From: a virus
IMG/VR virus record: IMGVR_UViG_3300025282_000300
Location: 1-21,337 of that record
Length of the DNA stretch: 21,337 bases
Reading direction: 5' to 3' (one strand)
Shown one piece after another: positions 598 through 21,337 of the stretch. The notes beneath the pieces are model-generated. The model was given only the letters and a program-made list of their open reading frames with translations, searched no databases and was not told where the DNA came from. Position 1 is the first letter of the stretch, and every line of letters starts with the position of its first letter. The position numbers and the translations under genes were made by a program.

Positions 598-3500
598 TTA
601 TCCTCCGAGTAAGCTTACTTTAGTTTTAAATTTTCCTACAAATTCTATATTAGTTACAGCCATAGGATGAATATTATTAGACTTTATTTTAAGAGACAAG
701 TCATCAGCATAGCCTAATATAGGAGCTTTAAACAAACCAAAGCTCTTGTAATTAGTAGTACTTAGGTTTACATCTCTATCGTCTGCAATGTCAATCAAAA
801 AAGGTAAAACTTTAGCAGTTCGTCCCTGTCTTGAGACCTCTACATTAAAATTCCCAGAATTTCTAAACCTAAATAACCCATATCGTAAATTTAACGTACC
901 ATTCACAGCCATTTGCTCCTGACTTCTAAAGAATTGAGGAGATAGCTCAATTTCAGACAGGTATTTCTTCCCTGACCATACCGTAGTAGCATTATTTAAA
1001 ACATCTTGATAGTCTCCAGCAATATATCCACTAACTACGGCATTGCTGGGAATTGAAGTTCCAGTAACGGTTAAATCAAAGACCATTCCTTCATAATCTC
1101 CACTACCTACCACAATAGTATCTATATCCCAACTAGATTGAACAAAATCACTAGATGTTCTATCAGTACTAGGGTTATAAGCCCATGATCCAGTAGATAA
1201 GGTTAGGTGATCTAATCTTGGTTCACCTAACTCAGCATTATTTAAAGGAATTCTGCGTAGGGTTAGGTATTTTGTACTAGGATTAGCACTAGTTGATGGA
1301 GTTGTCTCTTCGGATACTATATAGAGAAATTCATCCAAAGCTTTGACACTTCTTATCTGAGCTTCAGAAGATAATTTAAATCTATAGAACGAATTCTGTA
1401 GAATTTGATCTCCACTTACCCTATTTGTATATACATAGATATCATTAGGATTATCTTTGTCTACTATGAACATAGAGCTTGTATCTGACGACACCGTAGG
1501 AGATATTAAATAATTTTCAGGTAAATAGTTAGGAGCATTCATAGATAACTCTAGAGCTTGTTGCTGAGTATCGCTTTGTTCTCCGAAATAAATATATAAC
1601 CTTCTCTTATCGAAGAAGAATAGGTTGTTGTTCATTAGAATTGGTTCTGTATTCTCTGCCATACCAAAGAAAGATGTGGGGGAGATTTCGGCAGTCAAAG
1701 GAGAGATTTGATTCTCAGATCCTAGTAACTCGTATTGAGTATTGCCAGATGTAGCCAAGAATAAGAAACTTCTATATGGCTGTAGATATGTAATTGGAGT
1801 AAATGAGTTTGAAGACACACTGAGATCTATAGGATCATTAACTGTGATGTTATTAGGATCAAAGACCCATAAGTTATCGAAGTTACCTAGTCTAGAGGAA
1901 ACTACCTTGTCTTCACTAGCTAGAAACAATCTATCTCTATAGAAAGACATGGCTGTAATATTACTTTGCACTGCATTGCCATCTCCATCATGGAAAATAG
2001 AGGGGCCTGGGTTAGATTCAATAGTTCCTGAAGTTCTTTCATCCCAATCTATATGTCTTAGTATCCATTCTCCTTCAGCATTTACAGCTAATTGTTTAGG
2101 CATCCTTAATTTATCTATAATAGACATACCATCAGGAGTTCTAACTACATGAAGGTAAGGTTGGTTTTCAATATCTTTAACTCTGTAATGTCCTTCTGAT
2201 AAACCCAAGTAGGGTTGGTTGAGGTAGTATATCTTACCATCTCCATCTGCATCACCTATATCAGGATAGAGTGCCTTAATCACATCCTCAGCATTGTTTC
2301 TAGCACCAAGAGCAGCTGCAGTAGGAGGGAACTTAAGATCGCTTAACCTCTGAACAGCTTGTCCTAGATAAGCACTCTCAGGATTAGGATAATAGTAATC
2401 ACTAGCTAATATATATTCAGTATATCTATTCTCTACAGGATCAATAGGCTCTCCTTCTTCATCCTTCACAGTATCTCGTTCCCATTGGTCTGGATAATAC
2501 TCATTACTAATTATAATACCAGTACCTCTAGAATTTGTCTCAGCTGTGTAGTGCAAGATCATTCCAGGGTCAGGTACCACATCATCTTCAACATCTACTT
2601 CTCCACCAAAGTTAGAGAGCCGATTAATGGCTGTTACTATAGTCTTAGCTAATGTATGGTAGTTATTTACTCCTCCAGTACCTAAGATAATAATCTTATT
2701 GTTTTCCCAGTCTGTCCACTTTAAAATACCAGTATCATAGCTATCGTCAAGCTTTATAGTTCTTGTCTCTGCAGTACCTGTTTCTAATATATGGATTAAT
2801 TCAAAGTATGTATCATTGTATTTTACTATCTCATCCGCAGCTCCCTCATCCTCAACAAATACATCAGTAATACTAGCAGCTCTAAAGCTAGGGTCATCAT
2901 CCCCAACAGCTCGATATGTCATAAGCTGAATCTCAGCTGTGGCTTTAGATGTAGAACTTCCACTAGCAAATCCTTGAACATCAAAGTATGCATCAAGTAT
3001 AGCACTACCCGTAGTTAGGACTAAAGGATAGTTAACTTCTGTAGCAGTTAGCTGATTGACAGGTGATCTAGGCTGTACTCCCATATCACTTGGTCCTACT
3101 ATACCAGAGACTGTATCTTTAACTTTCCAGATGCCATAGATATGATCATTACTTCCTGTATCCAAAGGATCGTTCCTATCATATGTTCTGTCTTCAGATA
3201 TATACTGTTGATGAGGGTTCCATGACTCTGCAATATTTTCTGGATCTACAGTAACTGTAGTTTCGTATTCAACAGATCTTCCTACTGGATCTTGAGCTGT
3301 TTTAAGATCTCCAGTCACTCCATTATAATCTATAGTAAGCCAAGTGTCTCCATCCTCATGTAGTACACTGGTATAACCTGCTTTAACTACAGTATTGAGA
3401 ACAAGAATAGATGAGCCTACAGCTACAGCTCGTAAAGCCTGATCTGCTGTATAAGTAGTACCATCTGTAGGACCATTGTCTGTCACGCCATTGCCCCAAG

Positions 3501-3930
3501 TTAGATACTTCTTATGTTCTTCCTCGATACTAGGAATAGAATCCATCTTAAAGGTTCCATCAGTATTTACTCGGTATACCCACATCATATCAGTACTCTC
3601 TGTTGGGTCAGCTGAGTAATCTATTATAATTAAAAATCTTTGTTCAGCTGAAGCTGAGTACCAATGAAACCATAGGTCTTTAGTACTCGTTGATTCAGTA
3701 CCATAAATTTCTTGTAGTATGCCATGAAAATTGGATGGATCTGCTCGTGTTAATAACTTAGCACCCCTGCGTTTTTCTGCTGAATGTTCTATAGAAACTA
3801 AAAAGTTATCTATATTCTCAGACTCCATAGGAGTTCTCTTTGCTGGTGATTGTCTACCAACTCCTCCTGCCAAAGTAGGAATACTTATTCTCATAGGAAA
3901 GTATGTCCTAGATCTACGAGCTTTAGCCAT
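598..3930 (-). CDS. Tail tubular protein B (T7 gp12-like)
   Basis: This is a large structural protein of 1110 residues from the chosen start. The frame stays open back to 4041, but the ATG at 3930 is preferred. It has GGAG eight bases upstream, it overlaps the stop of tail tubular protein A by only 8 bases, and it places the IPTLAGGVGRQSP motif near the N-terminus, as in gp12-like proteins, which start with a similar G-G-[IV]-x-[QR]-Q-[SP] segment. In this family the protein forms the hexameric nozzle at the end of the short tail. The protein is rich in Ser, Thr, Asp and Asn, and looks like mixed beta structure with no signal peptide or membrane segment. It is longer than T7 gp12 (about 790 residues), so it may carry extra domains, which I could not identify. 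The stop codon lies inside the ribosome binding region of the tail fibre gene. Confidence 0.85.
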   Translation of the reverse strand: MAKARRSRTYFPMRISIPTLAGGVGRQSPAKRTPMESENIDNFLVSIEHSAEKRRGAKLLTRADPSNFHGILQEIYGTESTSTKDLWFHWYSASAEQRFLIIIDYSADPTESTDMMWVYRVNTDGTFKMDSIPSIEEEHKKYLTWGNGVTDNGPTDGTTYTADQALRAVAVGSSILVLNTVVKAGYTSVLHEDGDTWLTIDYNGVTGDLKTAQDPVGRSVEYETTVTVDPENIAESWNPHQQYISEDRTYDRNDPLDTGSNDHIYGIWKVKDTVSGIVGPSDMGVQPRSPVNQLTATEVNYPLVLTTGSAILDAYFDVQGFASGSSTSKATAEIQLMTYRAVGDDDPSFRAASITDVFVEDEGAADEIVKYNDTYFELIHILETGTAETRTIKLDDSYDTGILKWTDWENNKIIILGTGGVNNYHTLAKTIVTAINRLSNFGGEVDVEDDVVPDPGMILHYTAETNSRGTGIIISNEYYPDQWERDTVKDEEGEPIDPVENRYTEYILASDYYYPNPESAYLGQAVQRLSDLKFPPTAAALGARNNAEDVIKALYPDIGDADGDGKIYYLNQPYLGLSEGHYRVKDIENQPYLHVVRTPDGMSIIDKLRMPKQLAVNAEGEWILRHIDWDERTSGTIESNPGPSIFHDGDGNAVQSNITAMSFYRDRLFLASEDKVVSSRLGNFDNLWVFDPNNITVNDPIDLSVSSNSFTPITYLQPYRSFLFLATSGNTQYELLGSENQISPLTAEISPTSFFGMAENTEPILMNNNLFFFDKRRLYIYFGEQSDTQQQALELSMNAPNYLPENYLISPTVSSDTSSMFIVDKDNPNDIYVYTNRVSGDQILQNSFYRFKLSSEAQIRSVKALDEFLYIVSEETTPSTSANPSTKYLTLRRIPLNNAELGEPRLDHLTLSTGSWAYNPSTDRTSSDFVQSSWDIDTIVVGSGDYEGMVFDLTVTGTSIPSNAVVSGYIAGDYQDVLNNATTVWSGKKYLSEIELSPQFFRSQEQMAVNGTLNLRYGLFRFRNSGNFNVEVSRQGRTAKVLPFLIDIADDRDVNLSTTNYKSFGLFKAPILGYADDLSLKIKSNNIHPMAVTNIEFVGKFKTKVSLLGG

Positions 3931-4585
3931 TAGTAGTTCTCCAGAATCTAAATCTACTAGGATCACCATGAACTGATCTTCTCTGAAAGATTTCTCTTGC
4001 TCTAGATGTAGCACTACTAAAGATAGAGTAGTTCTTGTCATCTATATCTGCTGATTTACCCTTAGCCATGTATAGTGATTCTATTTGTCCTAAGTAGTTA
4101 TCAACATCGCCATCACCTTGCATAACTAATTGATATTGTCTAGCAGCAGCAGCCATAATAGATCTTTGTATAGGTGTGTCCATCTCTTCCCAGACTAAAG
4201 CATAAATAACTTCTACATAATAATCTTTACTAGCATCCCAACTATTAATATGGTCAGTTAAATTATGTAGTCTAATATTACCTTCTGAATCCTGTCTAGC
4301 ATTAGCCTTAATTCTTTCCCCATCATCATTCGTATGATACGATACAAGTTCTGCACTTAAAGTATCGGTCGGCAAATCTATAATCCCATCTGTACTTAAA
4401 TTATATTTCTTAACATAGGTGTTACTAGCCATCCCTCTTAGTTGAAAGTCTGTGATATTTCTTTCTAAGATAAACAGAGAAACCTCTGTATCTAGACCAC
4501 TCTCTCCCTCTAGATCGTTGACTAGAGATTCTCCTGCCATTAGCAGCATATGATTAACTGCATCTAGCTTAGTTATTGCACCCAT
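3923..4585 (-). CDS. Tail tubular protein A (T7 gp11-like gatekeeper)
   Basis: This 220-residue protein is the adaptor that in T7-like phages sits under the portal and joins it to the nozzle. The N-terminus (LDAVNHMLLMAGESLVNDLE) is typical of the family: a helix with an alanine-asparagine-leucine pattern followed by a Gly-Glu and hydrophobic turn. The length is close to T7 gp11 (about 196). The start at 4585 has AAAAGGAG seven bases upstream. It is the first gene after the strong terminator behind the capsid gene, and its last 8 bases overlap the start of tail tubular protein B, which suggests coupled translation. The family assignment rests on order, size and N-terminal pattern. Confidence 0.83.
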   Translation of the reverse strand: MGAITKLDAVNHMLLMAGESLVNDLEGESGLDTEVSLFILERNITDFQLRGMASNTYVKKYNLSTDGIIDLPTDTLSAELVSYHTNDDGERIKANARQDSEGNIRLHNLTDHINSWDASKDYYVEVIYALVWEEMDTPIQRSIMAAAARQYQLVMQGDGDVDNYLGQIESLYMAKGKSADIDDKNYSIFSSATSRAREIFQRRSVHGDPSRFRFWRTTNG

Positions 4586-7312: not shown

Positions 7313-8302
7313 TTATTCCTCGTACAAGGCTACGATATTAGTAGCATTAGTGTTAGTAGCCATAACTTTAGTGGCAGGGGTCATCTCTATAATACTACCA
7401 ACAGCCCTTTTTTTAAGAACTGTAGTTACTCCGTCCAATACTACAGCCACATCAGCTTTTTTAGCATTGAACCACTTGTCTGTTAAATAATCATAAATAA
7501 CTCCTCTTTCTCTAGCACTTAAATTTTTCTTCCATATTAATATTTCAGCAATCTCTCCATCCATACCTTGTCCATAAGTAGGAGTAGTATCTTCTAGTCT
7601 TTGTCCTATATAAAGATCATCAGTTCCAGTAAGGTCTTCGGTATTAGATACAGAACTACCATCAGTAGCATTATTAAGATATAGTTGTAGAGTGTTTACC
7701 GAATTCCTCTGTACCCCCACAACATACCAAGTACCTGTACTTAGTGTCGCAGCACCTACTGCATCATTACCAGAAACATGGAACTTCATAACACCATCAT
7801 CACAAATCCATGTCCATTCAGACGAGTGTTTATCCTTAGCCATTACAGCCGAATTGCCATTCACAGCATCAAACTTAACTAACGCTATCATTGAAAAGGC
7901 ACCAGTAAAATCAAAATCAGCATGGTCGTCTACCTTAAACCCATCATCATTTGCTCCAGCCCTATCAAAATCTATAGTGGCTAATCCATTAGTAGCAGCA
8001 ATACCAGCCTCTACATGAGGAGCGTTTGTTATTGCTGCATTATGACTATTGCCAGACTGATCAGCCCATGTGGATATAGTAGTTCCTGATGATACAGCTA
8101 CCCCAGCATTAGCCTTAAGCCATAGCTTGGGACTGTGTAAGTCACCTACAACTACATTAGCTTCAAAGTTTCCATCTCCTACATATAATGCACTAAAGAA
8201 CGGTTCTTCTCCAGGACCGTAAAGAGTACTATCGCTAGGAGTAATAGCCGAAGCACTAGAATACCCCTTTTTACCGCCATCTTGCATTGGAAAACTAGGC
8301 AT
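7313..8302 (-). CDS. LamG / concanavalin A-like domain virion protein
   Basis: This protein has 329 residues. Residues 58-280 form a LamG-like jelly roll: the opening LWLKANAG (60-67) and WADQSGNSHNA (79-89), central strands, and the closing GEIAEILIWKKNLSARERG (249-267) are typical of these glycan-binding modules. The parts flanking LamG (ALYVGDG at 38-44 and ADVAVVLDG to NATNIVALYEE at 283-329) look like two halves of the small fold encoded by the next gene upstream (GIYVGVAGD... to DCVALS), as if LamG had been inserted into it. The likely role is a capsid decoration or surface protein that binds carbohydrate. It starts two bases after its neighbour's stop and has only a weak ribosome binding site, which suggests translational coupling. 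Confidence 0.75.
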   Translation of the reverse strand: MPSFPMQDGGKKGYSSASAITPSDSTLYGPGEEPFFSALYVGDGNFEANVVVGDLHSPKLWLKANAGVAVSSGTTISTWADQSGNSHNAAITNAPHVEAGIAATNGLATIDFDRAGANDDGFKVDDHADFDFTGAFSMIALVKFDAVNGNSAVMAKDKHSSEWTWICDDGVMKFHVSGNDAVGAATLSTGTWYVVGVQRNSVNTLQLYLNNATDGSSVSNTEDLTGTDDLYIGQRLEDTTPTYGQGMDGEIAEILIWKKNLSARERGVIYDYLTDKWFNAKKADVAVVLDGVTTVLKKRAVGSIIEMTPATKVMATNTNATNIVALYEE

Positions 8303-8664: not shown

Positions 8665-9792
8665 TTAAGACTTCTTGTATGCCACTTTAAATTTTGCTGT
8701 AAAGGAAGAGCCAAGATTTAAGTTAGTATTATTAACAACCAATCTAAACCACGGAGCTACAATATCTGTAGCATCTACCAAATACAATTTATCACCTGTA
8801 ACATTAGGTTGAATATCATTAGCTATTCTTACTCCAGAAATAGCAGATCCACTTCCACCAGTAAAGCTTACAACTGTAGCATTAGTAAGAGCATCAGTAA
8901 TAGTTGTATTACCTACATCTCCAGCCACTAATTGAGTAACAGTTAGCTGACCTGCCCCATCGTTCTGAGTAGTAATAGCTCCATTGTGTCCAGCAGTAGC
9001 TGCTATGCAAGCAGCTAAAGATGTAACAGCACTAGTGAACTCACCGCCTGTAAAGCTAGTACTAGTAGTATTAGCAAGATTCTCGGTAATAGTTCTATTT
9101 CCATCAGCTCCTGCAGTAGCTTGGGTTAACGTAAGACCGCCAGCCCCATCATCAACTACAGTGATCTTACCAGCATGTCCACCAGCGTTATCAATAGCTA
9201 GCTTTAACTTAGCCCCACAGTCAGCAGCACTAACGTCTGCTTTAAACTGGTTAACTCCAGCGGTAAAGTCTGAAGATGGATGTGCAATATAGGTTCTAGA
9301 TAAACCATCTTCAGAAATAATTTGAATAGTTTGTGCTAAAGTAGGTAGCCCTGCAAAAGTAATGGTAGCTGTAGCAGCAGTACCGCTAACATTAAAATAT
9401 CTCGCACCTAAATCTTCTGAAGCTTTAGCTGTATATACTTTAGCATTTCCTAAATAATCTACTAAGGTTACTGTACCATCCACAGCCGGAAGATCTGTCA
9501 GGGTAATAGTACCTTCAGATCGAATATTTTTAGTAGTCCATGTAGTTCCATCAATAGAAACCTGTAATTGAAAGTCTGCGTTAACGTCATTTCCTGCACC
9601 AATTACTTCTACACCCACCAGAAACTTTTTCTCTAGTGCTGTATATATACTACTGTCTAACGCTACTGTACCTAGAGCATCTGTACCAGCTCCTGAAGCG
9701 GTTAGTGCATTAGATGTTGCTGTAGTTAAAACCTCATAACCATTAGTTTTAGTTTTGGTAAACGCCTTAGATTGTACTTGAATAACACTCAT
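8665..9792 (-). CDS. Beta-repeat structural protein, probable head decoration
   Basis: This 375-residue protein is rich in Thr, Ala, Gly and Val, with few charged residues. The N-terminal region contains DFQLQVSIDGTTWTTK (73-88) and the C-terminal end has PWFRLVVNNT...FKVAY (347-372); these two ends resemble halves of a small phage beta-sandwich. Between them lie repetitive beta segments, including a 46-residue duplication (205-250 and 268-313) and two earlier strand-pair units ending in YTA (119-121) and YIA (168-170). The gene starts with an ATGA overlap on the portal stop and has GGAGG about ten bases upstream. Location between portal and scaffold supports a virion role, most likely on the capsid surface. 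A fibre-like structure is an alternative. Confidence 0.68.
   Translation of the reverse strand: MSVIQVQSKAFTKTKTNGYEVLTTATSNALTASGAGTDALGTVALDSSIYTALEKKFLVGVEVIGAGNDVNADFQLQVSIDGTTWTTKNIRSEGTITLTDLPAVDGTVTLVDYLGNAKVYTAKASEDLGARYFNVSGTAATATITFAGLPTLAQTIQIISEDGLSRTYIAHPSSDFTAGVNQFKADVSAADCGAKLKLAIDNAGGHAGKITVVDDGAGGLTLTQATAGADGNRTITENLANTTSTSFTGGEFTSAVTSLAACIAATAGHNGAITTQNDGAGQLTVTQLVAGDVGNTTITDALTNATVVSFTGGSGSAISGVRIANDIQPNVTGDKLYLVDATDIVAPWFRLVVNNTNLNLGSSFTAKFKVAYKKS
8854..9180 (-). repeat. Tandem 46-residue coding duplication
   Basis: Two 46-residue units lie at 9043-9180 and 8854-8991, separated by 17 residues. Both begin GH-x-G-x-IT, carry DGAG-x-LT-x-TQ in the middle and end in SFTGG; I count 28 identical positions of 46. 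The equal length without gaps indicates an internal duplication within the beta-repeat structural protein. Confidence 0.8.
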
Positions 9793-11348
9793 TGAGCCAT
9801 CCCTCCCATTCCTTGTTGCATACCTTGCATTGCCATTTGTTCTGCCACGTTAGTCATAGCTTGTTGCCCTCCTATTTGTGCTTGTTGTTGAGCTTGCATT
9901 GCCATTTGTTCTTGCTGAGCAGCCATCTGCTCTTGCTGTAGCTCTTCTTCTGTTTTAATCCAAGCATCAGGAGAGAATCCTAATGATGTAATTAGAGCTT
10001 TGCCGAATTGATCCCATCTAAACATAGCTGCTGCTTGTTCAGGAAGATTACGAACCATCTCACCCATTTGCATGAGTTTTTGTAGGTCAGTATCCCTGCT
10101 CAAAGCTTGCAGTCCAGTTACAATTTCGATATTTAATAAACCCTCATTCTCAAACATGTCTTTAAGTCGATCATCTATATCACCTTGAGCCATCATTAAA
10201 AATACACATCGTCTTACTATAGGCTGCATTAGTTCTCTAGCAATAGAAGAGAATGCTCCACCTAAAACATGTTCTAGTTCTTGTCCAATCATTCTTACTG
10301 CAGTAGCAGTAACCCTATCCCCTGTTGGCATACTAGAGGAGTCCATAAGGAATGCTTTCCCTATTTCTTTTCTTAATATCTCTACACCAGCTTGAGTAGC
10401 TTGTATCTGAGGGGTCATTGTAGTAGCTGGTGATATAGCAAACACTTCATTCATTCTTGCAGGGACAAAGTTACCTGTAGGACTCATGGCTAAGTCATCT
10501 ATTTCTGTCATTCCAGCAGGATCTACTCCCATCCAGAATAAAGAAGATGCTGTAACTCCATGAATCAGTCCTTCTGTAAATGCTTCAAGAGATTTAATAT
10601 CACCAATCATATCTTCACAATGAGATCTTCCATAGTTTTCACTAGGTATACTAGCCCATCTAAGTACAGTGTAAGGTAATACATCAAACGTACCCTTGTC
10701 TACAACATTTCCCTCTGTATCTTGCTTCTCTATTTTCCAGCCACCCTTGTCACCAGGAGTAACCCTGACATATATTTTTCTGTAGCCTCTCTTTTCATTT
10801 TGAGTCATAGAAGAAGTAAGTGATGTGGCATCATCATCTCTCTCTTCTTTAATAGAGTCAAATTCTATAAAGATTAGTTCTTCTATTTTACCATGAACAT
10901 CTCGCCTACATACATATCTATCCAGACGTATAACTCTAAAGTCAAAGTCATCATCCATGACAACAAGTACATCACCAACAACGATTAGATGTTGGAGCAC
11001 TTGGTAAATTGTTTCTCTGAAATTAGCTGAAGATAATTTATTATATACCTGATAGCTTAATGCTTCTAGATAAGAATAGATTTCAGCGTCAGGCTCTACA
11101 CCTGAAGATAGTTCAAACTTAAAGAAAGGCATATCATTTAAAGGAAGTAATGCACTTAGCATTCTACTTGCCATAGAAGTTACACCTTTAGCAGCTACAG
11201 AACTATACGGTTGAGCTAAAGGCTCTTGCTCTGTCCATCCTGAAGGAGGAAGAAGAGACGGCACAGTTAAAGAACTAAAGTACCTAGCTCTTTCGAGCTT
11301 ACTGGTTCTTAAACCATCTAGATTTTTAAAGTGAAATCCTATATTCAT
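9789..11348 (-). CDS. Portal protein (T7 gp8-like head-tail connector)
   Basis: This 519-residue protein would form the dodecameric portal through which DNA is packaged and ejected. The N-terminal part (YFSSLTVPSLLPPSG at 23-37, then PYSSVAAKGVTSMASRML to about residue 64, and FFKFEL) is the standard opening of T7-like portals. The region around residues 345-365 (GDRVTATAVRMIGQELE) matches the conserved core helix. The length is close to T7 gp8 (536). The C-terminus from about 465 is strikingly rich in Gln, Met and Ala, as in several podoviral portals. The start at 11348 has AGGAAA upstream, inside the last codons of the preceding gene. The stop overlaps the next start by ATGA. Confidence 0.93.
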   Translation of the reverse strand: MNIGFHFKNLDGLRTSKLERARYFSSLTVPSLLPPSGWTEQEPLAQPYSSVAAKGVTSMASRMLSALLPLNDMPFFKFELSSGVEPDAEIYSYLEALSYQVYNKLSSANFRETIYQVLQHLIVVGDVLVVMDDDFDFRVIRLDRYVCRRDVHGKIEELIFIEFDSIKEERDDDATSLTSSMTQNEKRGYRKIYVRVTPGDKGGWKIEKQDTEGNVVDKGTFDVLPYTVLRWASIPSENYGRSHCEDMIGDIKSLEAFTEGLIHGVTASSLFWMGVDPAGMTEIDDLAMSPTGNFVPARMNEVFAISPATTMTPQIQATQAGVEILRKEIGKAFLMDSSSMPTGDRVTATAVRMIGQELEHVLGGAFSSIARELMQPIVRRCVFLMMAQGDIDDRLKDMFENEGLLNIEIVTGLQALSRDTDLQKLMQMGEMVRNLPEQAAAMFRWDQFGKALITSLGFSPDAWIKTEEELQQEQMAAQQEQMAMQAQQQAQIGGQQAMTNVAEQMAMQGMQQGMGGMAQ

Positions 11349-11353
11349 AGTTA

Positions 11354-11722
11354 TTATTTCCTACTAGGGAAGAAACCCTTAGGCTGACCTAAAAAGTTTT
11401 GTCCTCCTCCTTGAGCTCCTTGTAACAAAGCAGCAAACATATCACCAAACCCCTCATCTCTATCAGAAACTGAATACATTTCTTCTGCTTCTTCTACGGC
11501 TGCTCGTTCTTCTTCCGCAAGATTTCTAATCCTAGACTCTTCTTCTTTCATTTTTCTTGCAGCTATTCTAGCATCTCTCTCTTCTTGCTCTTGTCTTTCT
11601 TTCTCAGCTTCAGATCTAAAGTATTCTCGATCTTCTAAGTCTCTAGTTCTAGCTCTTTGAGCAGATTCTTCTGCTACTTTAGCTTGTTGTGCAAACATTT
11701 TTGCATAATTGGGTGATGACAT
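11354..11722 (-). CDS. Charged coiled-coil protein, unknown function
   Basis: This 122-residue protein is not recognised. Residues 10-82 are almost entirely charged and alanine-rich (repeats of Glu, Arg, Lys with few hydrophobics), which predicts a long single helix or coiled coil. The end is Gly/Phe/Gln-rich (GGGQNFLGQPKGFFPSRK). The start has AAGGAG seven bases upstream and the stop falls inside the portal ribosome binding region, so it is probably expressed with the head genes. A minor virion, scaffold-helper or ejection protein would fit the position. It lacks the LG-x-KR tail of the genes upstream but also ends in basic residues. Confidence 0.6.
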   Translation of the reverse strand: MSSPNYAKMFAQQAKVAEESAQRARTRDLEDREYFRSEAEKERQEQEERDARIAARKMKEEESRIRNLAEEERAAVEEAEEMYSVSDRDEGFGDMFAALLQGAQGGGQNFLGQPKGFFPSRK

Positions 11723-11737
11723 ACTTTAACTCCTTCT

Positions 11738-12139
11738 CTAAGGTCTTTTCATTCCTAAACGCAGTGGTCTAGAACCTTTAAATTTTCTGGCTCGTACTTT
11801 TCTTCTTTCTTTACCCCTAGAACCCACAGCTCCACCAGTACCTAGCCTTGATCGTACTAGGTCTCCTACTTTTGCTGAAGTTTCTTCTCGAATAACTCCT
11901 GCTTCTTGTACTTCTCTACGTTTCTTAGCCTTAGCAGCTCTGCCTTTACGAATATCTTTTACATCTTGAATACCTTTTAACCTACCAGCTTCGGCAGCCT
12001 CCATCTGAGCTTGAGCATCGGCAGCCATTTGTGCTCTTTCCTCAGCATCAGGTGCACCAAAGATATCTTCAGTTACAAAGTCTTCAATATCGTCCCATAG
12101 ATCTCCAACATCATCCCAAATATTTTCTACGGTTCCCAT
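11738..12139 (-). CDS. Small basic protein with acidic W-D-D N-terminus; gp7.3-like by position
   Basis: This protein has 133 residues. The N-terminus carries an imperfect repeat (IWDDVGDLWDDIEDF, 7-21) that would be an acidic amphipathic helix. An Ala/Gln-rich helix follows, then a strongly basic half, with AKVGDLVRSRLGTGGAVGSR (89-108) and a C-terminal RPLRLGMKRP. In T7 the gene at this place is 7.3, a small virion protein with a basic, glycine-containing C-terminal half; that similarity is positional and compositional only. The C-terminus is a shortened form of the tail shared by the upstream paralogues. Its start codon and ribosome binding site (GAGGGGTAGGTA) are supplied by the direct repeat at the end of the preceding gene. 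Confidence 0.62.
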   Translation of the reverse strand: MGTVENIWDDVGDLWDDIEDFVTEDIFGAPDAEERAQMAADAQAQMEAAEAGRLKGIQDVKDIRKGRAAKAKKRREVQEAGVIREETSAKVGDLVRSRLGTGGAVGSRGKERRKVRARKFKGSRPLRLGMKRP

Positions 12140-12172
12140 TACCTACCCCTCTTTCTTTTAGAGCCCAATCTT
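12135..12172 (-). repeat. Array junction repeat, copy 5
   Basis: This copy codes RLGSKRKRGR and its stop, and holds the GAGGGGTAGGTA leader and ATGGG of the 133-residue gene. Similarity to copies 3 and 4 ends upstream of the RLGS codons, where copies 3 and 4 code NTRGVQ. Confidence 0.8.
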
Positions 12173-12696
12173 GGACTATAGCTAGTCATCCTCTTAGATG
12201 GATCGAGTGGACCGGGATAAGGATCTTTTTCTGAGTCTGGTAATCTTCCAGGATAGCGTTCTGGTTTTTGTGGAGGCCCCGATGGGAAATAAGGGTAGCC
12301 CGGAGGAGCCGTAGCACCTTGAGGGTCGCCAGAGTCACCAAAGAGCCAATTGAATAAACCAAAGTGTTTTGGCATTGCTCCTATTCCATAAGGGGGGTGC
12401 GATATATCTTTCCCATGTTCAGTCATTACCATATGATTACCATACTCACCATGACTATGCATCTCAGGTCCGGAAAATCCATGACTATCGAATCTGTCTC
12501 CTTTCAAGATTGCGTCTAGTATACCAGTAGGTGTTTCATCATATGGATCATACTTAGGTTCGTCACCCGGTCTAACGAAACTTCTCTCGCTGCCCCTACC
12601 ACCTCTATTTTTTTTACCCTTTTTTCTCATAGGATCTGGGTTAGGTGTTGGACCTGGCCAAGGATTAATTGGTGTTGGTACTGGTGGAAAACTCAT
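12139..12696 (-). CDS. Array protein 5: Pro/Gly-rich, LGSKRKRG tail
   Basis: This 185-residue protein is not recognised. Residues 1-40 are proline-rich then basic. A His/Gly/Met-rich stretch lies at about 73-100, followed by GIGAMPKHFGLFNWLFGD and DPQGATAPPG, which recur in neighbours, a proline-rich linker, and the tail SPRLGSKRKRGR. Low complexity predicts disorder except for the short hydrophobic FGLFNWLFG segment. The start ATG overlaps the previous stop (TAATG) and uses a ribosome binding site embedded in the upstream repeat. Position in the late gene order, ahead of the portal, suggests a virion-associated or DNA-associated role, but this is inference. No enzymatic motif is visible. Confidence 0.62.
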   Translation of the reverse strand: MSFPPVPTPINPWPGPTPNPDPMRKKGKKNRGGRGSERSFVRPGDEPKYDPYDETPTGILDAILKGDRFDSHGFSGPEMHSHGEYGNHMVMTEHGKDISHPPYGIGAMPKHFGLFNWLFGDSGDPQGATAPPGYPYFPSGPPQKPERYPGRLPDSEKDPYPGPLDPSKRMTSYSPRLGSKRKRGR

Positions 12697-12760
12697 TACC
12701 TACCTCTCTTTCTTTTAGAGCCTAACTGGACTCCCCTTGTATTCTTCTTCCTCTTACCTC
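12692..12760 (-). repeat. Array junction repeat, copy 4
   Basis: This copy codes NTRGVQLGSKRKRGR and its stop, and holds the GAGAGGTAGGTA leader and ATG of the 185-residue gene. It is nearly identical to copy 3 and shares its first 30 bases with copy 5 apart from two differences. Confidence 0.85.
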
Positions 12761-13175
12761 TGCTCGGAATACTTCCTGGAGGAGCCATAGCACCTTGAGG
12801 ATCTTCTTCTTCCTTCTCGAACCATTCCTGGAACGCTTCATCTAGCCACGAAGTATCAAAGTGTTCATCTATTGCTCCTTCTTGGTAGGGACCTCTCGAC
12901 CAATCATCAAGCGTGGGATTTTTAACGCCGATGTGGGTCAGATCGTATGCAGGATCATCTGGGCTCACATGCCCCCAGATCGAATCAAAATCTTCGCCTT
13001 CTCTATAACCACCTATAGGGTTCTGAACGTAGTGCCACTTTACGTGTCCTGCTTCATGCGGAGGTTTGGGCCAGCCAAGAACTGCAGGTCGGTTTTCATC
13101 TTCATCTTCAAAGCTGAATGCTTCTGGGTCTGAAAATTCGTAGAAAAATCGGTTAAACTTCTCTGCCAATCCCAT
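12696..13175 (-). CDS. Array protein 4: acidic N-terminus, GVQLGSKRKRG tail
   Basis: This 159-residue protein is not recognised. The N-terminal two thirds are acidic and aromatic (FNRFFYEFSDPEAFSFED). In the middle, PHEAGHVKWHY (39-49) holds a histidine pair spaced somewhat like metal ligands; it lacks the HExxH signature of zinc proteases, so I do not call an enzyme. The second half has QEGAIDEHFDTSWLDEAF, DPQGAMAPPG and the tail NTRGVQLGSKRKRGR. The tail and its DNA are nearly identical to those of the gene upstream. The start is a TAATG overlap with the previous gene and uses its GAGAGGTAAGTA ribosome binding site. Confidence 0.62.
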   Translation of the reverse strand: MGLAEKFNRFFYEFSDPEAFSFEDEDENRPAVLGWPKPPHEAGHVKWHYVQNPIGGYREGEDFDSIWGHVSPDDPAYDLTHIGVKNPTLDDWSRGPYQEGAIDEHFDTSWLDEAFQEWFEKEEEDPQGAMAPPGSIPSRGKRKKNTRGVQLGSKRKRGR

Positions 13176-13240
13176 TACTTACCTCTCTTTCTTTTAGAGC
13201 CTAACTGAACTCCTCTTGTATTCTTTTTCTTACCTCTAGA
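13171..13240 (-). repeat. Array junction repeat, copy 3
   Basis: This copy codes NTRGVQLGSKRKRGK and its stop, and holds the GAGAGGTAAGTA leader and ATGGG of the 159-residue gene. Bases 13173-13225 align without gaps to 12694-12746 (copy 4), and I count 3 differences in 53 positions. Confidence 0.85.
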
Positions 13241-13738
13241 TGCAGGAGGTTGTCCTGTGTTGCTACTACGATAGTACTCCTTTAGATCTTCTTCTTGTTG
13301 GTGCAACGAAGGGCTTGTGGGTTTAAACAAATCATCATTATTGCCAGGAATATTCCACCAAGGCCAATCATCCATATCACCTAGTAGAATATTTGTCAAG
13401 AAGTCAAAATGTTTGGGTATTGCTCCTTCATTATAAGGATCTCTAAAGTTATAAAACTTTAATATATGTTCAGCCCATTCCTCTTCTGGGTTTTTCTCTG
13501 GATAGATATCTTCCCATGGTATTCTAGTTGGGGTATCTGGTATTCTTTCAGGATACAGAGGTACTAGATCCCTGTCCTCCCCCTGTCCATTTCCTCCACG
13601 CGGGTGTTCTATTGGAATTTCTCTTTTACGAGGTCGACCCCCTGGCCCTTTCCTCGGTGGGTGTCTAGGTGGTCTTGGATTTGGATTCTGTGGAGGAAAC
13701 CGTGGTGGTCTTCTCTCTTCTTTTTTACCCCATCCCAT
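13175..13738 (-). CDS. Array protein 3: Pro/Arg-rich N-terminus, GVQLGSKRKRG tail
   Basis: This 187-residue protein (from the chosen start) is not recognised. The first 55 residues are dense in Pro, Arg and Lys (PPRFPPQNPNPRPPRHPPRK). An acidic, aromatic middle follows with NEGAIPKHFDFLTNILLGD, and the tail is NTRGVQLGSKRKRGK. I chose the ATG at 13738 because it lies one base after the upstream stop and gives the M-G start seen in most of the neighbours. A GTG at 13771 preceded by AAGGA would add 11 residues and cannot be excluded. Charge is divided sharply: basic ends around an acidic centre. A role in binding nucleic acid or the capsid interior is possible but unproven. Confidence 0.6.
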   Translation of the reverse strand: MGWGKKEERRPPRFPPQNPNPRPPRHPPRKGPGGRPRKREIPIEHPRGGNGQGEDRDLVPLYPERIPDTPTRIPWEDIYPEKNPEEEWAEHILKFYNFRDPYNEGAIPKHFDFLTNILLGDMDDWPWWNIPGNNDDLFKPTSPSLHQQEEDLKEYYRSSNTGQPPASRGKKKNTRGVQLGSKRKRGK

Positions 13739-13739
13739 C

Positions 13740-14123
13740 TTAGTATGGCCACCAAGTTCTGTAAAGCCCACCTATTCCTTGAGGTGCTTCCTGCCACCAC
13801 ATATTATTGGCACCTTGACCGCCTGGTATTTGTGGACTTGATCCACTACGTATGTGTTGTCGCAAGTATTGCTGCCTCGCGTAACCAGGATTTAGTGGGA
13901 ATGGCTCATCTGGTGCGAAGCCTCGCGTTCCAGGAGCAGGCAATGCGTTAGGCCTGTCGGTTGGTCCTCCCCAAGCTCTCTCTGCTCTTGGTCTATTTGT
14001 TTTTTTCTTAGTCTTTGATCTGCTGCTAGGTCTTGGTCTTCCACCACCACCCCCTTGTGTAGATCTTGCCATAGGATGAACTGTTCTAAATCTTTGGCTA
14101 TAGTCATCTCGTGGTGCTCCCAT
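13740..14123 (-). CDS. Array protein 2: basic Gly/Arg-rich protein without the tail
   Basis: This 127-residue protein is not recognised. The first half is basic and Gly/Arg/Ser/Lys-rich (ARSTQGGGGGRPRPSSRSKT, 19-38). The second half is Pro/Gly/Gln-rich and ends with aromatic residues (NNMWWQEAPQGIGGLYRTWW then PY). It lies inside the array and starts on the stop of the 108-residue gene with the repeat-borne AGAGGGGTTATTA ribosome binding site, but it lacks the LG-x-KR tail, and the junction to the next gene has no repeat. APQGIGG near the end weakly recalls the DPQGA box of the neighbours. It may be an array member that lost its tail, or a separate gene. Confidence 0.55.
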   Translation of the reverse strand: MGAPRDDYSQRFRTVHPMARSTQGGGGGRPRPSSRSKTKKKTNRPRAERAWGGPTDRPNALPAPGTRGFAPDEPFPLNPGYARQQYLRQHIRSGSSPQIPGGQGANNMWWQEAPQGIGGLYRTWWPY

Positions 14124-14190
14124 TAATAACCCCTCTTCCTACTTGCGGGCCTTTTAGCACCCAATCTAACTCCTCTTGTAGTCTTTCTTC
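14119..14190 (-). repeat. Array junction repeat, copy 2 (with insertion)
   Basis: This copy codes the TTRGVRLGAKRP tail and carries the leader AGAGGGGTTATTA and ATGGG of the 127-residue gene. Relative to copies 3 to 5 it has about 18 extra bases in the middle, which code the PASR region before KRGY. Confidence 0.65.
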
Positions 14191-14449
14191 TATTAGGCTT
14201 CTTTCTATTACTTCGATTCCAAAGTCTACCATATTCATCTCTAAAGCTTTTCTCTCCGCCTTCATCATCTTCTTCTTCTTCAGGTTCTTTCTCAGGTTGT
14301 TCAGGATCTGCTGGTGTCTCTTCTTCTTCTTCTTCTCTTTCCTCTTTAGGGAGAGGAATTGGATAAGGATCTCCAGTTCCTGGTAATGGTTTAACCCGTC
14401 CCCAGTCATCAACATGTTCGCGTGGTACTCTTCTTAGATGCCAGCCCAT
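14123..14449 (-). CDS. Array protein 1: polyglutamate centre, GVRLGAKRP tail
   Basis: This 108-residue protein is not recognised. After a short basic start (MGWHLRRVPREHVDDWGR) comes a Pro/Glu-rich acidic segment (about 35-66) with two runs of glutamate, and then a basic tail (RRKTTRGVRLGAKRPASRKR then GY). The tail matches the others but has a six-residue insertion after KR. The acidic runs are coded by GAA/GAG triplet repeats at 14261-14281 and 14318-14337. The gene starts 16 bases after the previous stop with the same AGAGGGGTAGGT leader found at the other array junctions. An overlapping frame in the same region (14104-14415) is a low-complexity shadow. Confidence 0.6.
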   Translation of the reverse strand: MGWHLRRVPREHVDDWGRVKPLPGTGDPYPIPLPKEEREEEEEETPADPEQPEKEPEEEEDDEGGEKSFRDEYGRLWNRSNRKKPNRRKTTRGVRLGAKRPASRKRGY

Positions 14450-14469
14450 ACCTACCCCTCTTTCTTTAG
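14445..14469 (-). repeat. Array junction repeat, copy 1 (leader only)
   Basis: The minus-strand sequence AGAAAGAGGGGTAGGT runs into ATGGG of the 108-residue gene. It matches the last part of the other junction repeats apart from a single-base gap before the ATG. Here it is noncoding: the preceding 63-residue gene stops at the left edge of the copy. Confidence 0.65.
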
Positions 14470-14657
14470 TTTCTATCTTTAATCTGTTGCTTATACAGTA
14501 TTTCTAATCGTTTAATAATATCTCTCTGCCCTGCCCTAAAGACAGCAGCATTAACAAACTCATCTATGTCCTTACCCTCTTGGAATTCAGTCGGAGGAAA
14601 CTTTGGCTTTAGAAATTCTAGTAGTTCCTCGTCTATCCTTGGATTCTTCTTTGACAT
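14466..14657 (-). CDS. Small acidic/basic protein, unknown function
   Basis: This 63-residue protein is not recognised. It is predicted mostly helical and carries many charged residues (RIDEELLEFLKPKFPPTEFQ; later RAGQRDIIKRLEILYKQQIK). It overlaps the upstream 65-residue gene by 71 bases in another frame, yet it has a strong ribosome binding site (GGAGG, six bases before ATG), which supports translation. It stops 16 bases before the first array gene. A small regulatory or host-takeover protein is possible, but nothing specific shows this. Confidence 0.6.
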   Translation of the reverse strand: MSKKNPRIDEELLEFLKPKFPPTEFQEGKDIDEFVNAAVFRAGQRDIIKRLEILYKQQIKDRN

Positions 14658-14784
14658 TACCTGCCTCCAACTCTTCTAGTCTCTTGTCAAAATCTCTTAG
14701 CAATAAAAGCTCTTCGGCAGGCATAATTCTTGCCTGAGGATTTTCTAGTCTCATATATATACTTAACAATCTCTCACTTTTCAT
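14587..14784 (-). CDS. Small charged protein, unknown function
   Basis: This 65-residue protein is not recognised. The first 40 residues are likely helical (EELLLLRDFDKRLEELEAGN), and the rest is basic and polar. The start at 14784 has GGAG six bases upstream and overlaps the end of the ribonucleotide reductase gene by 11 bases, so it belongs to the same operon. Its 3' third overlaps the following small gene. Confidence 0.55.
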   Translation of the reverse strand: MKSERLLSIYMRLENPQARIMPAEELLLLRDFDKRLEELEAGNVKEESKDRRGTTRISKAKVSSD

Positions 14785-18917: not shown

Positions 18918-20605
18918 TCACTCCAGTTCCTTCCTATCCTATACTCCCCATCCATAGGTATTTTACATTCTAATCTTTTTCCTGCTTCAACTATTGAACT
19001 TACACCTAGCTGTCCTATTTCTTCTGCGATGTTTGGCTTGCACTCAAGCTGCCATTCATCATGAACAGTAGCCATAAGTTTAACGCTATCTTTCCACTCA
19101 TCCTTAGAGTGTATAGCATCATAGAAGATTACCAAAGCCAGCTTCATAAGTACAGCTCCATCACCTTGTATCTGTACATTCAATGAAGAATGTTTAGATC
19201 TACACGGTACTTCTCTCTTATCTAGCAATGTTACTGTACCCTTCTTAGCTACTTGGAATTTACAATTCTCAATTAATTTCTTTAACGCAGGCATGTTGTC
19301 TAAGAACCTTTTCTTAAGTTCTGCTCCAGCACTAACACCTTTGTCAATGATCTGTCCTATTTTACCATTACCTGCCCCATAAATCAAGGCGTAAAAGAAA
19401 GTTTTTGCATCATTTCTGTCACTGAGTCCAGCTTGTTCTTGGTTGTGCTCATGTATGTCTCCGTTAAGAACCAATGCTCCGTACTCTCCATTGTCCCATG
19501 CAGCCATACGATTCGCTAACAGCCGTGCCTCTAATCCACTGGCATCAATACCAAGTTGAACCCATCCCTCTTGTGGGACAAACAGAGCCCGTGCTCTTGG
19601 GTCTCCAGATACTTGTTGTAAGTTAGGTTGACTAGCTGTCATCCTACCTGTCACAGCACCTTGAGGATTAATTGATCCGTGTATCTTACCATCTCTTGAT
19701 AGCCCAGCCCTAATGATCCAGTCAGATAACATACTGCCTAGCTTTGTCATTTCAAAACATTTAGAAAGCATCTTAGCTTCTGGATATTTTAGCTTGCTTA
19801 GTACGGCTTCATCTACCTTAGGATTTCCCTTGTCTGTTAGTGGGGGTTTCCATCCATACTTCATACCTAATCTCTTAGCAATTTGTTGCCGTGAGTTAGT
19901 GTTGAAGTGTTCAACAGAATCTTTTAACCTATTGCCTGTCTTTTCTGACCATCTCTCTGTTGTAATGGGTGGAAATATACGACACAGCTTGTCTTCTACG
20001 CCAGCCTTCTCCATCATTAGCTCTTGCTCTAGTCTTTCGGCACCCTCTATGTCAAAGCCCATACCATTTTCCATCTGTTCGGATAGGATAGTACTTACTC
20101 TTTGTTCAGTAGTTATAATGTTATTATGATTTACTATGAAAGACTCTTGCTCTTTGTATATAGCTTCGGATACTTCTACATCTTGTATACAGTACTTAAG
20201 CATTTGCTCTGAGAAAGAATCGAATCCTCCATCATACTCATCTTTCATAACCCTAAGCTTCTTGCCCCAGTTCTTTAAACTGTTGCCACCTAGAGGATGA
20301 TTTCTAATATCAGGATACATTATCCTAGAAACAATTAGAGTATCTATAGTTGTTACATTAATAGGACCATAGAATCTTTCAAGTACAGGTATATCGTACA
20401 TGATTATGTTATGTCCTATCAAGGTGTCGGCTTGTCGTAACAAGTTAACACCCTCTTCTATCTGGTGTTCTTTAAAAGTATAGACTTTACCTGTGTCTAT
20501 ATCTTTAGCTACAATACACCAGACTTTAGAAACTTCGGGGTTGTGATTTTTATCTATCGTAACTTCACGCAACCCATTTGCTTCTATGTCAAATACAAGT
20601 TCCAT
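18908..20605 (-). CDS. Family A DNA polymerase with 3'-5' exonuclease domain
   Basis: This 565-residue polymerase replicates the phage genome. The exonuclease domain has FDIEANG (D6, E8), LIGHNIIMYDIP (N66, D71) and YCIQDVE (Y138, D142). The polymerase domain has AVTGRMTASQPNLQQ, motif A GIDASGLEARLL (D354), motif B RNDAKTFFYALIYGAG (R397, K401, Y405) and motif C VHDEWQ (H515, D516). Y405 stands where E. coli Pol I has Phe762, so this is a Tyr762-type enzyme like T7 gp5. It is about 140 residues shorter than gp5 and shows no room for a thioredoxin-binding insert in the thumb. The ATG at 20605 is chosen over the upstream one at 20665 because GGAG lies seven bases before it and the exonuclease motif follows at once. 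Confidence 0.95.
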   Translation of the reverse strand: MELVFDIEANGLREVTIDKNHNPEVSKVWCIVAKDIDTGKVYTFKEHQIEEGVNLLRQADTLIGHNIIMYDIPVLERFYGPINVTTIDTLIVSRIMYPDIRNHPLGGNSLKNWGKKLRVMKDEYDGGFDSFSEQMLKYCIQDVEVSEAIYKEQESFIVNHNNIITTEQRVSTILSEQMENGMGFDIEGAERLEQELMMEKAGVEDKLCRIFPPITTERWSEKTGNRLKDSVEHFNTNSRQQIAKRLGMKYGWKPPLTDKGNPKVDEAVLSKLKYPEAKMLSKCFEMTKLGSMLSDWIIRAGLSRDGKIHGSINPQGAVTGRMTASQPNLQQVSGDPRARALFVPQEGWVQLGIDASGLEARLLANRMAAWDNGEYGALVLNGDIHEHNQEQAGLSDRNDAKTFFYALIYGAGNGKIGQIIDKGVSAGAELKKRFLDNMPALKKLIENCKFQVAKKGTVTLLDKREVPCRSKHSSLNVQIQGDGAVLMKLALVIFYDAIHSKDEWKDSVKLMATVHDEWQLECKPNIAEEIGQLGVSSIVEAGKRLECKIPMDGEYRIGRNWSECH

Positions 20606-21191
20606 TTTGTATCTCCTGTGGTTGTACATTATCAATTGCGTCTTGAATATTTTCACAATCAACATTTAAAAAGTTTGCTATCTTAGTCATCTCTTCTTTA
20701 GTGTTGTCTAAGATATCTTCAAAGTAAACAGTTATAGATTCTATGTTCTTGTTTCTATTTAAAAACTTTCGCACCTCTCTATAATTATTTCTACGAATTA
20801 CTCCAAGCTTTTGTAGAGTGGGTATGTCTTCCAACATTTCCATTCTCTCTTGCGAGGAGGATGTCACCTTGACTTCAGCTTCGTATGCTTTCATAAGACT
20901 ATTGTCTTGCTCTGTAAGAGATCTCCTCTTACAAACAATAACTTTACTTACGTGTTCAGAAGCCACCTTGTTTAACCAGTGACCAAATACTTTAACCGCC
21001 ATGCCTTTAAACTGAAGTCCAACCCCAGCCATTAAGACCTTGTAGGGCAGGTCATAATAGCCTCTGGGGTTTAGTGACTTCACGGGGAAGTCTGGATGGA
21101 AGGGCATGCCTGCTATAGGCATCTTCCATATCTTCAGTGTCTGCATTAACAGGCTTGTGCCTGCCCTACCAGAGCCTGTAATTATTATCAT
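20589..21191 (-). CDS. Sulfotransferase-like P-loop protein
   Basis: This 200-residue protein opens with MIIITGSGRAGTSLLMQTL, the 5'-phosphosulfate-binding loop of the sulfotransferase family (P-loop variant G-x-x-R-x-GT-[ST]). Later come a conserved-looking KVIVCKRR (about 76-83), a plausible 3'-phosphate-binding segment, and VYFEDIL, recalling the family's Y-E-D-L motif. Members transfer sulfate from PAPS to sugars, lipids or peptides; a kinase-like role cannot be excluded. The ATG at 21191 forms an ATGA overlap with the helicase stop and is preferred to one at 21239. The stop overlaps the polymerase start by 17 bases. T7 has only small unrelated genes at this place, so this is an accessory gene. 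Confidence 0.66.
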   Translation of the reverse strand: MIIITGSGRAGTSLLMQTLKIWKMPIAGMPFHPDFPVKSLNPRGYYDLPYKVLMAGVGLQFKGMAVKVFGHWLNKVASEHVSKVIVCKRRSLTEQDNSLMKAYEAEVKVTSSSQERMEMLEDIPTLQKLGVIRRNNYREVRKFLNRNKNIESITVYFEDILDNTKEEMTKIANFLNVDCENIQDAIDNVQPQEIQNGTCI

Positions 21192-21337
21192 AACTCGTCT
21201 CGGTCTAGTACTATGTTGCCATCGTCGGCTAGTGCCCATCCAATCTCTTGCATTCTACCAGTTATGTGATCATAATACAAGCAGGATGCTACTCCAGCCT
21301 TACCTGTTAACCTATTCTTTAATACTCTAATAGTTGT
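21188..21337 (-). CDS. Replicative helicase (primase-helicase, T7 gp4-like), C-terminal end
   Basis: The last 49 codons of a gene that enters from beyond the window. The translation begins TTIRVLKNRLTGKAGVASCL and continues with YYDHITGRMQEIGW. This is the usual end of DnaB/gp4-like helicases (VLKNR-[FL]-TG...YD..TGR). These ring helicases unwind DNA at the fork; whether a primase domain is fused cannot be seen. It lies directly upstream of the sulfotransferase-like and polymerase genes, in T7 order. Confidence 0.8.
   Translation of the reverse strand, partial: TTIRVLKNRLTGKAGVASCLYYDHITGRMQEIGWALADDGNIVLDRDEL

Follow-up and report, generated by a model that had tools for sequence, protein, structure and literature searches.

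The window analysed here is a 21,337-nt stretch (IMG/VR record IMGVR_UViG_3300025282_000300, positions 1 to 21,337), a 21-kb fragment of an uncultured marine T7-like podovirus in which portal, scaffold, major capsid, tail adaptor and nozzle proteins are recognisable by PHROG and Pfam matches. Its closest portal among 50,697 phage records is at most ~31% identical. Near-complete relatives of the virus are 57-69 kb long, and a T7-type RNA polymerase and a helicase-primase are encoded in the one near-complete relative tested. The minus strand carries seven genes, designated a to g, between z63 (14466..14657, minus strand; PHROG 4970-like, E 6e-4), a small conserved gene at the upstream edge, and the gene for the T7 gp8-type head-tail connector or portal (9789..11348, minus strand; Pfam PF12236 E 4e-57, PHROG 449 E 1e-106) at the downstream edge. 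The stretch from the z63 homologue, which serves as the anchor, to the portal is referred to as the slot. The same array is present in contig L001, which matches the window with 99.98% identity across 13,107 bp (3 mismatches), and this rules out an assembly accident of a single contig. Gene z63 itself overlaps y65 out of frame (14466-14784, minus strand); the y homologues of relatives have a recurrent SKVSKKKVSS-like end that is encoded across the z start, a conserved dual-coding overlap.

The first gene of the array, a108 (14123..14449), encodes a protein with an acidic middle and a basic tail, TTRGVRLGAKRPASRKRGY, and overlaps b127 (13740..14123) by 1 nt in a TAATG. It is followed, also on the minus strand, by c187 (13175..13738; tail NTRGVQLGSKRKRGK; a start at the GTG at 13771 would give 198 aa), d159 (12696..13175; tail NTRGVQLGSKRKRGR), e185 (12139..12696; tail SPRLGSKRKRGR) and f133 (11738..12139). 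The f133 protein ends in RLGMKRP and belongs to a conserved slot family found also in relatives L005, L008, L010, L071, L124 and L125; the gene after it has its own Shine-Dalgarno (SD) sequence, located outside the f133 tag. This is g122 (11354..11722, minus strand), a portal-proximal slot family present in most relatives, which ends in FFPSRK here and in RP(x) in many other members. The coordinates, sizes and strand given for a108, c187, d159, e185 and f133 in the first-pass annotation were correct on recheck. All array ORFs, b127 included, show coding-like codon usage in frame that is absent from the other five frames. PHROG and Pfam scans returned no family match for the array proteins of the window, d159 matched nothing in the 50,697 phage records, and searches with d159 and e185 recovered the same virus only. 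The AlphaFold2 model of d159 has a mean pLDDT of 54.5 with no residue above 70, which suggests that most of the protein is probably disordered, and f133 is predicted with low to moderate confidence to form a long helix (mean pLDDT 65.5); both models are too uncertain to support a fold search.

A basic tail shared by the proteins of 108, 187, 159 and 185 aa had been noticed in the sequence, and it withstands comparison with composition-matched shuffles. The tails of a, c, d and e are pairwise more alike than shuffled tails, with 0-1 of 400 shuffles reaching the observed score (for c and d, a score of 91 against a shuffle mean of 25). The f133 tail is more weakly similar, its score being reached by 9 of 400 shuffles with a and with d, 29 of 400 with c and 115 of 400 with e, and by the same comparison b127 and g122 have no shared tail. 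The description of an array of tagged genes therefore holds for a, c, d and e but not for b127, which lies between a and c and scores no better than shuffles, and only loosely for f133. Likewise the motif x-LG-[SA]-KR...RG stands, but its proposed beginning, R-x-LG, misfits some of the actual sequences (a has RGVRLG, c and d have RGVQLG, and e has SPRLG). Net charge over the final 30 residues is +6 to +14 in a, c, d, e and f.

The second part of the original observation, that tag-coding DNA continues into the ribosome binding site (RBS) and start of the next gene, was confirmed for a, c, d and e, in each of which the tag DNA ends in the SD sequence and TAATG overlap of the following gene. The tag DNA of c187 (13175..13228, minus strand) ends in the SD (AGAGG) and TAATG of d159, the almost identical copy in d159 (12696..12749, minus strand) in those of e185, and that of e185 (12139..12173, minus strand) in those of f133. 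A non-coding copy of the repeat, AAAGAAAGAGGGGTAGGTA (14449..14467, minus strand), lies upstream of a108 and forms its ribosome binding site; together with the copy at the end of e185 it brackets the a-e block by direct repeats. The 19-nt junction repeat occurs four times in the window at up to 3 mismatches, against 0.01 copies expected, and no dinucleotide-preserving shuffle gave four. A degenerate DNA pattern for the exact tag, searched throughout IMG/VR, gave 33 matches besides the same virus, all of them internal to unrelated proteins.

The N-terminal parts had been said to differ, which is true of a, b and f, for whose bodies no homology to those of c-e was detected, but not of c, d and e among themselves. 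The latter bodies are homologous (z = 5.6-8.3 against shuffles), have a common PY.xGAIxKHFD segment and are diverged paralogues. In the c/d tail 13 of 16 codons are identical at identical residues (6.4 expected, P 0.001), while the c/d body is at chance level (19 of 35, 15.8 expected, P 0.17). The c/e pair points the same way (body P 0.11, tail P 0.02), whereas in d/e both parts exceed chance (body P 0.03, tail P 0.01) and are not separated. This test measures excess over chance rather than comparing the ages of tails and bodies directly, and the tail codon identity may partly be attributable to SD constraint on the last tag codons. The simplest reading is that the tag DNA was exchanged or homogenised after the bodies had diverged.

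Portal searches yielded more than 100 loci, from which, after removal of near-duplicates, 66 slots of distinct related phages were delimited, each with a z63 homologue. The comparison of gene number and order in related phages, set beforehand, revealed turnover: the slots hold 1-7 genes in 0.24-4.0 kb, and L002, the closest relative with 80% portal identity, has a single slot gene where the window virus has seven, the maximum. The f and g families recur across slots and others are private. A gene bounded by repeats, a layout that had also been foreseen, was found in one case. In L008 (portal 72% identical) the slot runs f, an additional 178-aa gene, then g, and an exact 28-nt direct repeat (1926-1953 and 2462-2489), composed of tag (GGRRPT), SD, TAATG and start, flanks exactly this one extra gene (gene 3). 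The extra protein has its tail but not its body in common with the L008 f protein, and in L005, L071, L124 and L125 the f and g homologues are adjacent, the L008-type extra gene being absent from that junction. The predicted layout is thus found independently in L008 with a different tag. In L001, the only near-identical contig, the window array is unchanged, so that a recombination event was not caught.

When the f protein of L008 and the g protein of L071 were used as scan queries, no new viruses appeared; tblastn of three slot proteins against the phage records gave no matches, ten slot proteins of relatives gave a single weak match in PHROG, to a family of unknown kind, and the f133 family alignment is too divergent for a pattern scan. 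A segment of the form GDTxLAHLTPGEVVxP...TVG...NPETGYPEF recurs on otherwise different slot proteins of relatives (L003 4884-5630, L011 271-2400, L036 4658-5638) and has no PHROG match. Two other slots (L017 1883-3340, L033 2007-4610) contain one or two additional proteins of 283-580 aa before the tagged gene, which lack an RP end.

Across the clade the slot proteins bear a more general C-terminal mark, -RP(x), counted as RP with at most two residues behind it. It ends 91 of 145 slot proteins of relatives compared with 3 of 430 other ORFs at the same loci, a very large contrast in counts that come from related viruses and are not independent, for a motif that was noticed before it was counted. 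When the last 20 aa are removed the slot proteins fall into 36 BLASTP clusters, and RP members occur in at least 14 of them. The mark is present in 37 of 45 proteins where the next gene has a separate RBS but in 14 of 35 where the genes overlap, and CGN arginine codons occur in -RP(x) ends. An origin of -RP as a by-product of the SD sequence was rejected, since the mark is commoner without overlap and uses CGN codons; both codon use and gap class indicate selection on -RP(x) at the protein level. Among the genes of five near-complete relatives only those of the slot were flagged for an -RP end, and for this reason -RP as a mark of all virion proteins was also rejected. In the window the a-e tags are of the LGxKR...RG form with no -RP end, and RP is found only on f133.

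In T7 the corresponding stretch before the portal encodes gp6.7, gp7 and gp7.3. Only the C-terminal loop of gp7.3 (residues 84-98) is resolved; there are six copies, every one attached to a pair of nozzle subunits, K84/K85 are at the DNA end and the remainder is unresolved or disordered in the channel around the DNA, whereas gp6.7 is positioned via residues 2-15 and 34-50 and not by its C-terminus (PMC11784390). Homologues of gp6.7 and gp7.3 were detected in particles of the T7-like phage phiPsa17 (PMC4517105). Like gp7.3, a protein of tail assembly and host range (PHROG 1320, PDB 9jyz), the array proteins are encoded directly upstream of the portal and have a basic C-terminal region, and they lie downstream of a PHROG 4970-type gene, as do the slot proteins of HTVC168P and others. 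The partners of gp7.3 are also encoded in the window, namely an adaptor (gp11) homologue and a nozzle (gp12) homologue (598..4041, minus strand; PHROG 457 E 3e-70; T7 gp12 PDB chains E 3e-20, including 9jyz, which holds gp7.3). By analogy with gp7.3, whose anchored C-terminal loop is a feature of T7, the nozzle is the proposed docking partner of the array proteins. The array proteins differ from gp7.3 in their size of 108-187 aa, in the presence of several tagged genes instead of one and in tag DNA that doubles as RBS and start of the next gene. Membership of the gp7.3 family was not supported by sequence: PHROG 1320 matched no array protein at E<=1 whereas it matches the Pelagibacter phage HTVC168P protein gp26 (E 6e-4), and with a position weight matrix for the C-terminal motif basic-[GS]-L-x-[IV], derived from 12 T7-like slot proteins, the window tails scored no better than shuffled tails (P 0.29-0.88). 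T7 gp6.7, a core/portal adaptor that is ejected, is similarly a small virion protein from this stretch, but its placement is not C-terminal and PHROG and Pfam gave no gp6.7-type match for the array proteins.

Other marine T7-like phages also have a slot from a PHROG 4970-like gene to the portal, with low-complexity proteins, in some cases a tandem pair, that are basic over a stretch close to the C-terminus (HTVC109P gp28/29, CRP-118 gp22/23, P-SSP7 gp23); in HTVC168P a single 74-aa protein, gp26, lies between the small gene and the portal. These slots differ from the array in holding 1-3 genes, several with GLNI-like ends, and in them the -RP mark and tag-RBS direct repeats were not seen. Single slot proteins of pelagiphages and P-SSP7 (L085 3733-3957, L177 16404-16685, L171 1516-1728) start with MC(x)nPK/P, which we take to be reminiscent of T7 gp6.7, and some of them end in a GLNI-like, gp7.3-type manner, as if both T7 roles were combined in one protein.

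It is proposed, with a probability of about one half, that the array is an expanded, fast-changing gp6.7/gp7.3 slot of C-terminally docked minor virion or ejection proteins in which the tag copies act as recombination points. On this reading the genes immediately before the portal would encode several minor tail-channel or ejection proteins. The C-terminal peptide would fix each of them in the particle, probably at a ring-shaped site on the nozzle, adaptor or portal, while the N-terminal part, largely disordered, could vary freely. Since the tag DNA includes the SD and TAATGGG start of the following gene, any pair of tag copies may serve as clean recombination points, and a crossover between them would add or drop one whole gene while tag, RBS and start stay intact. 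We infer that the proteins are in the virion, that they dock by the C-terminus and that homologous recombination is responsible for the exchange, and docking is suggested by analogy with gp7.3 rather than homology since the family and motif tests failed. The tail is a plausible address label because many unrelated slot families end in -RP(x) and the slot takes the place of T7 gp6.7/gp7.3. A broader version is offered tentatively, in which a C-terminal label, mostly -RPx-COOH and LGxKRKRG in the window virus, would load many unrelated proteins at one virion site as cassettes that are swappable because the label DNA is also the next RBS and start.

It is possible, if rather doubtful, that tandem duplication in a tight operon explains the array and that the tail is a duplication remnant kept as the RBS of the overlapping gene, with no docking role. 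The homologous bodies of c, d and e would follow from this, the SD is formed by the RG/RR codons of the tag, and slot genes commonly overlap in a TAATG. However, a108 bears the tail on a body without detectable homology to c-e, the likeness of the tails reaches upstream of the SD codons (RGVQLGS), and -RP(x) occurs more often where the SD is separate from the gene (37/45 versus 14/35) and employs CGN codons.

An unlikely alternative to docked virion proteins is that the slot is a hypervariable genome spot for small proteins with basic tails that bind DNA or RNA or take over the host. Strongly basic tails, predicted disorder and the lack of a known family would suit such proteins, but their position beside the portal is fixed across the clade and the corresponding slot of T7 and phiPsa17 encodes virion proteins detected in particles (PMC11784390, PMC4517105). 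Least probable by far is that the repeat is a phage promoter or terminator with the protein tail as its by-product; the clade does have a T7-like RNA polymerase and such phages bear repeated promoters, but the four copies are confined to the array, with none before the portal, scaffold, capsid or tail genes, and L008 has another repeat at the same junction type. The promoter reading was rejected on the restriction of the copies to the array.

The array resembles tail-fibre shufflons and diversity-generating retroelements in joining a constant end to variable parts, but differs in its direct repeats and whole small genes, and the variation of its cassettes is one between viruses. A shufflon or invertible cassette was rejected, as the junction repeats are direct and no inverted repeat flanks the array genes in the window (only four weak pairs, 75-89% across 18-21 nt). 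A reverse transcriptase of a diversity-generating retroelement was not found among the proteins scanned in this 21-kb fragment. The view that no described system has this layout needs qualification, because in T7-like phages one to a few small virion proteins occupy this place and small proteins before the portal are already known; what appears to be new is the shared tag, its second use as the start signal of the next gene, the turnover of cassettes and the RP mark across the clade. Should the tails prove to be docking labels, these phages would offer a natural C-terminal loading tag and a record of the cargo accepted by a podovirus tail channel or core. The proposal, if true, would also provide a clear sequence rule for the poorly understood gp6.7/gp7.3-type proteins, explain how ejected proteins are exchanged without loss of expression and allow a simple test of C-terminal addressing in virions.

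Several neighbouring genes have features of their own. Directly downstream of the portal a 375-aa protein (8665-9792, minus strand) contains the segment GHxGxITxxxDGAGxLTxTQ...SFTGG twice and matches neither PHROG nor Pfam families. A protein with a concanavalin-like (Laminin_G_3) domain (7313-8302, minus strand) adjoins the structural genes, and a further gene (20589-21239, minus strand) is weakly sulfotransferase-like. Near-complete relatives encode one giant late protein each of ~2,700-5,100 aa (L158, G001 43253-58648; L160; L163; L165; L168), an unusually big fraction of a genome of ~65 kb.
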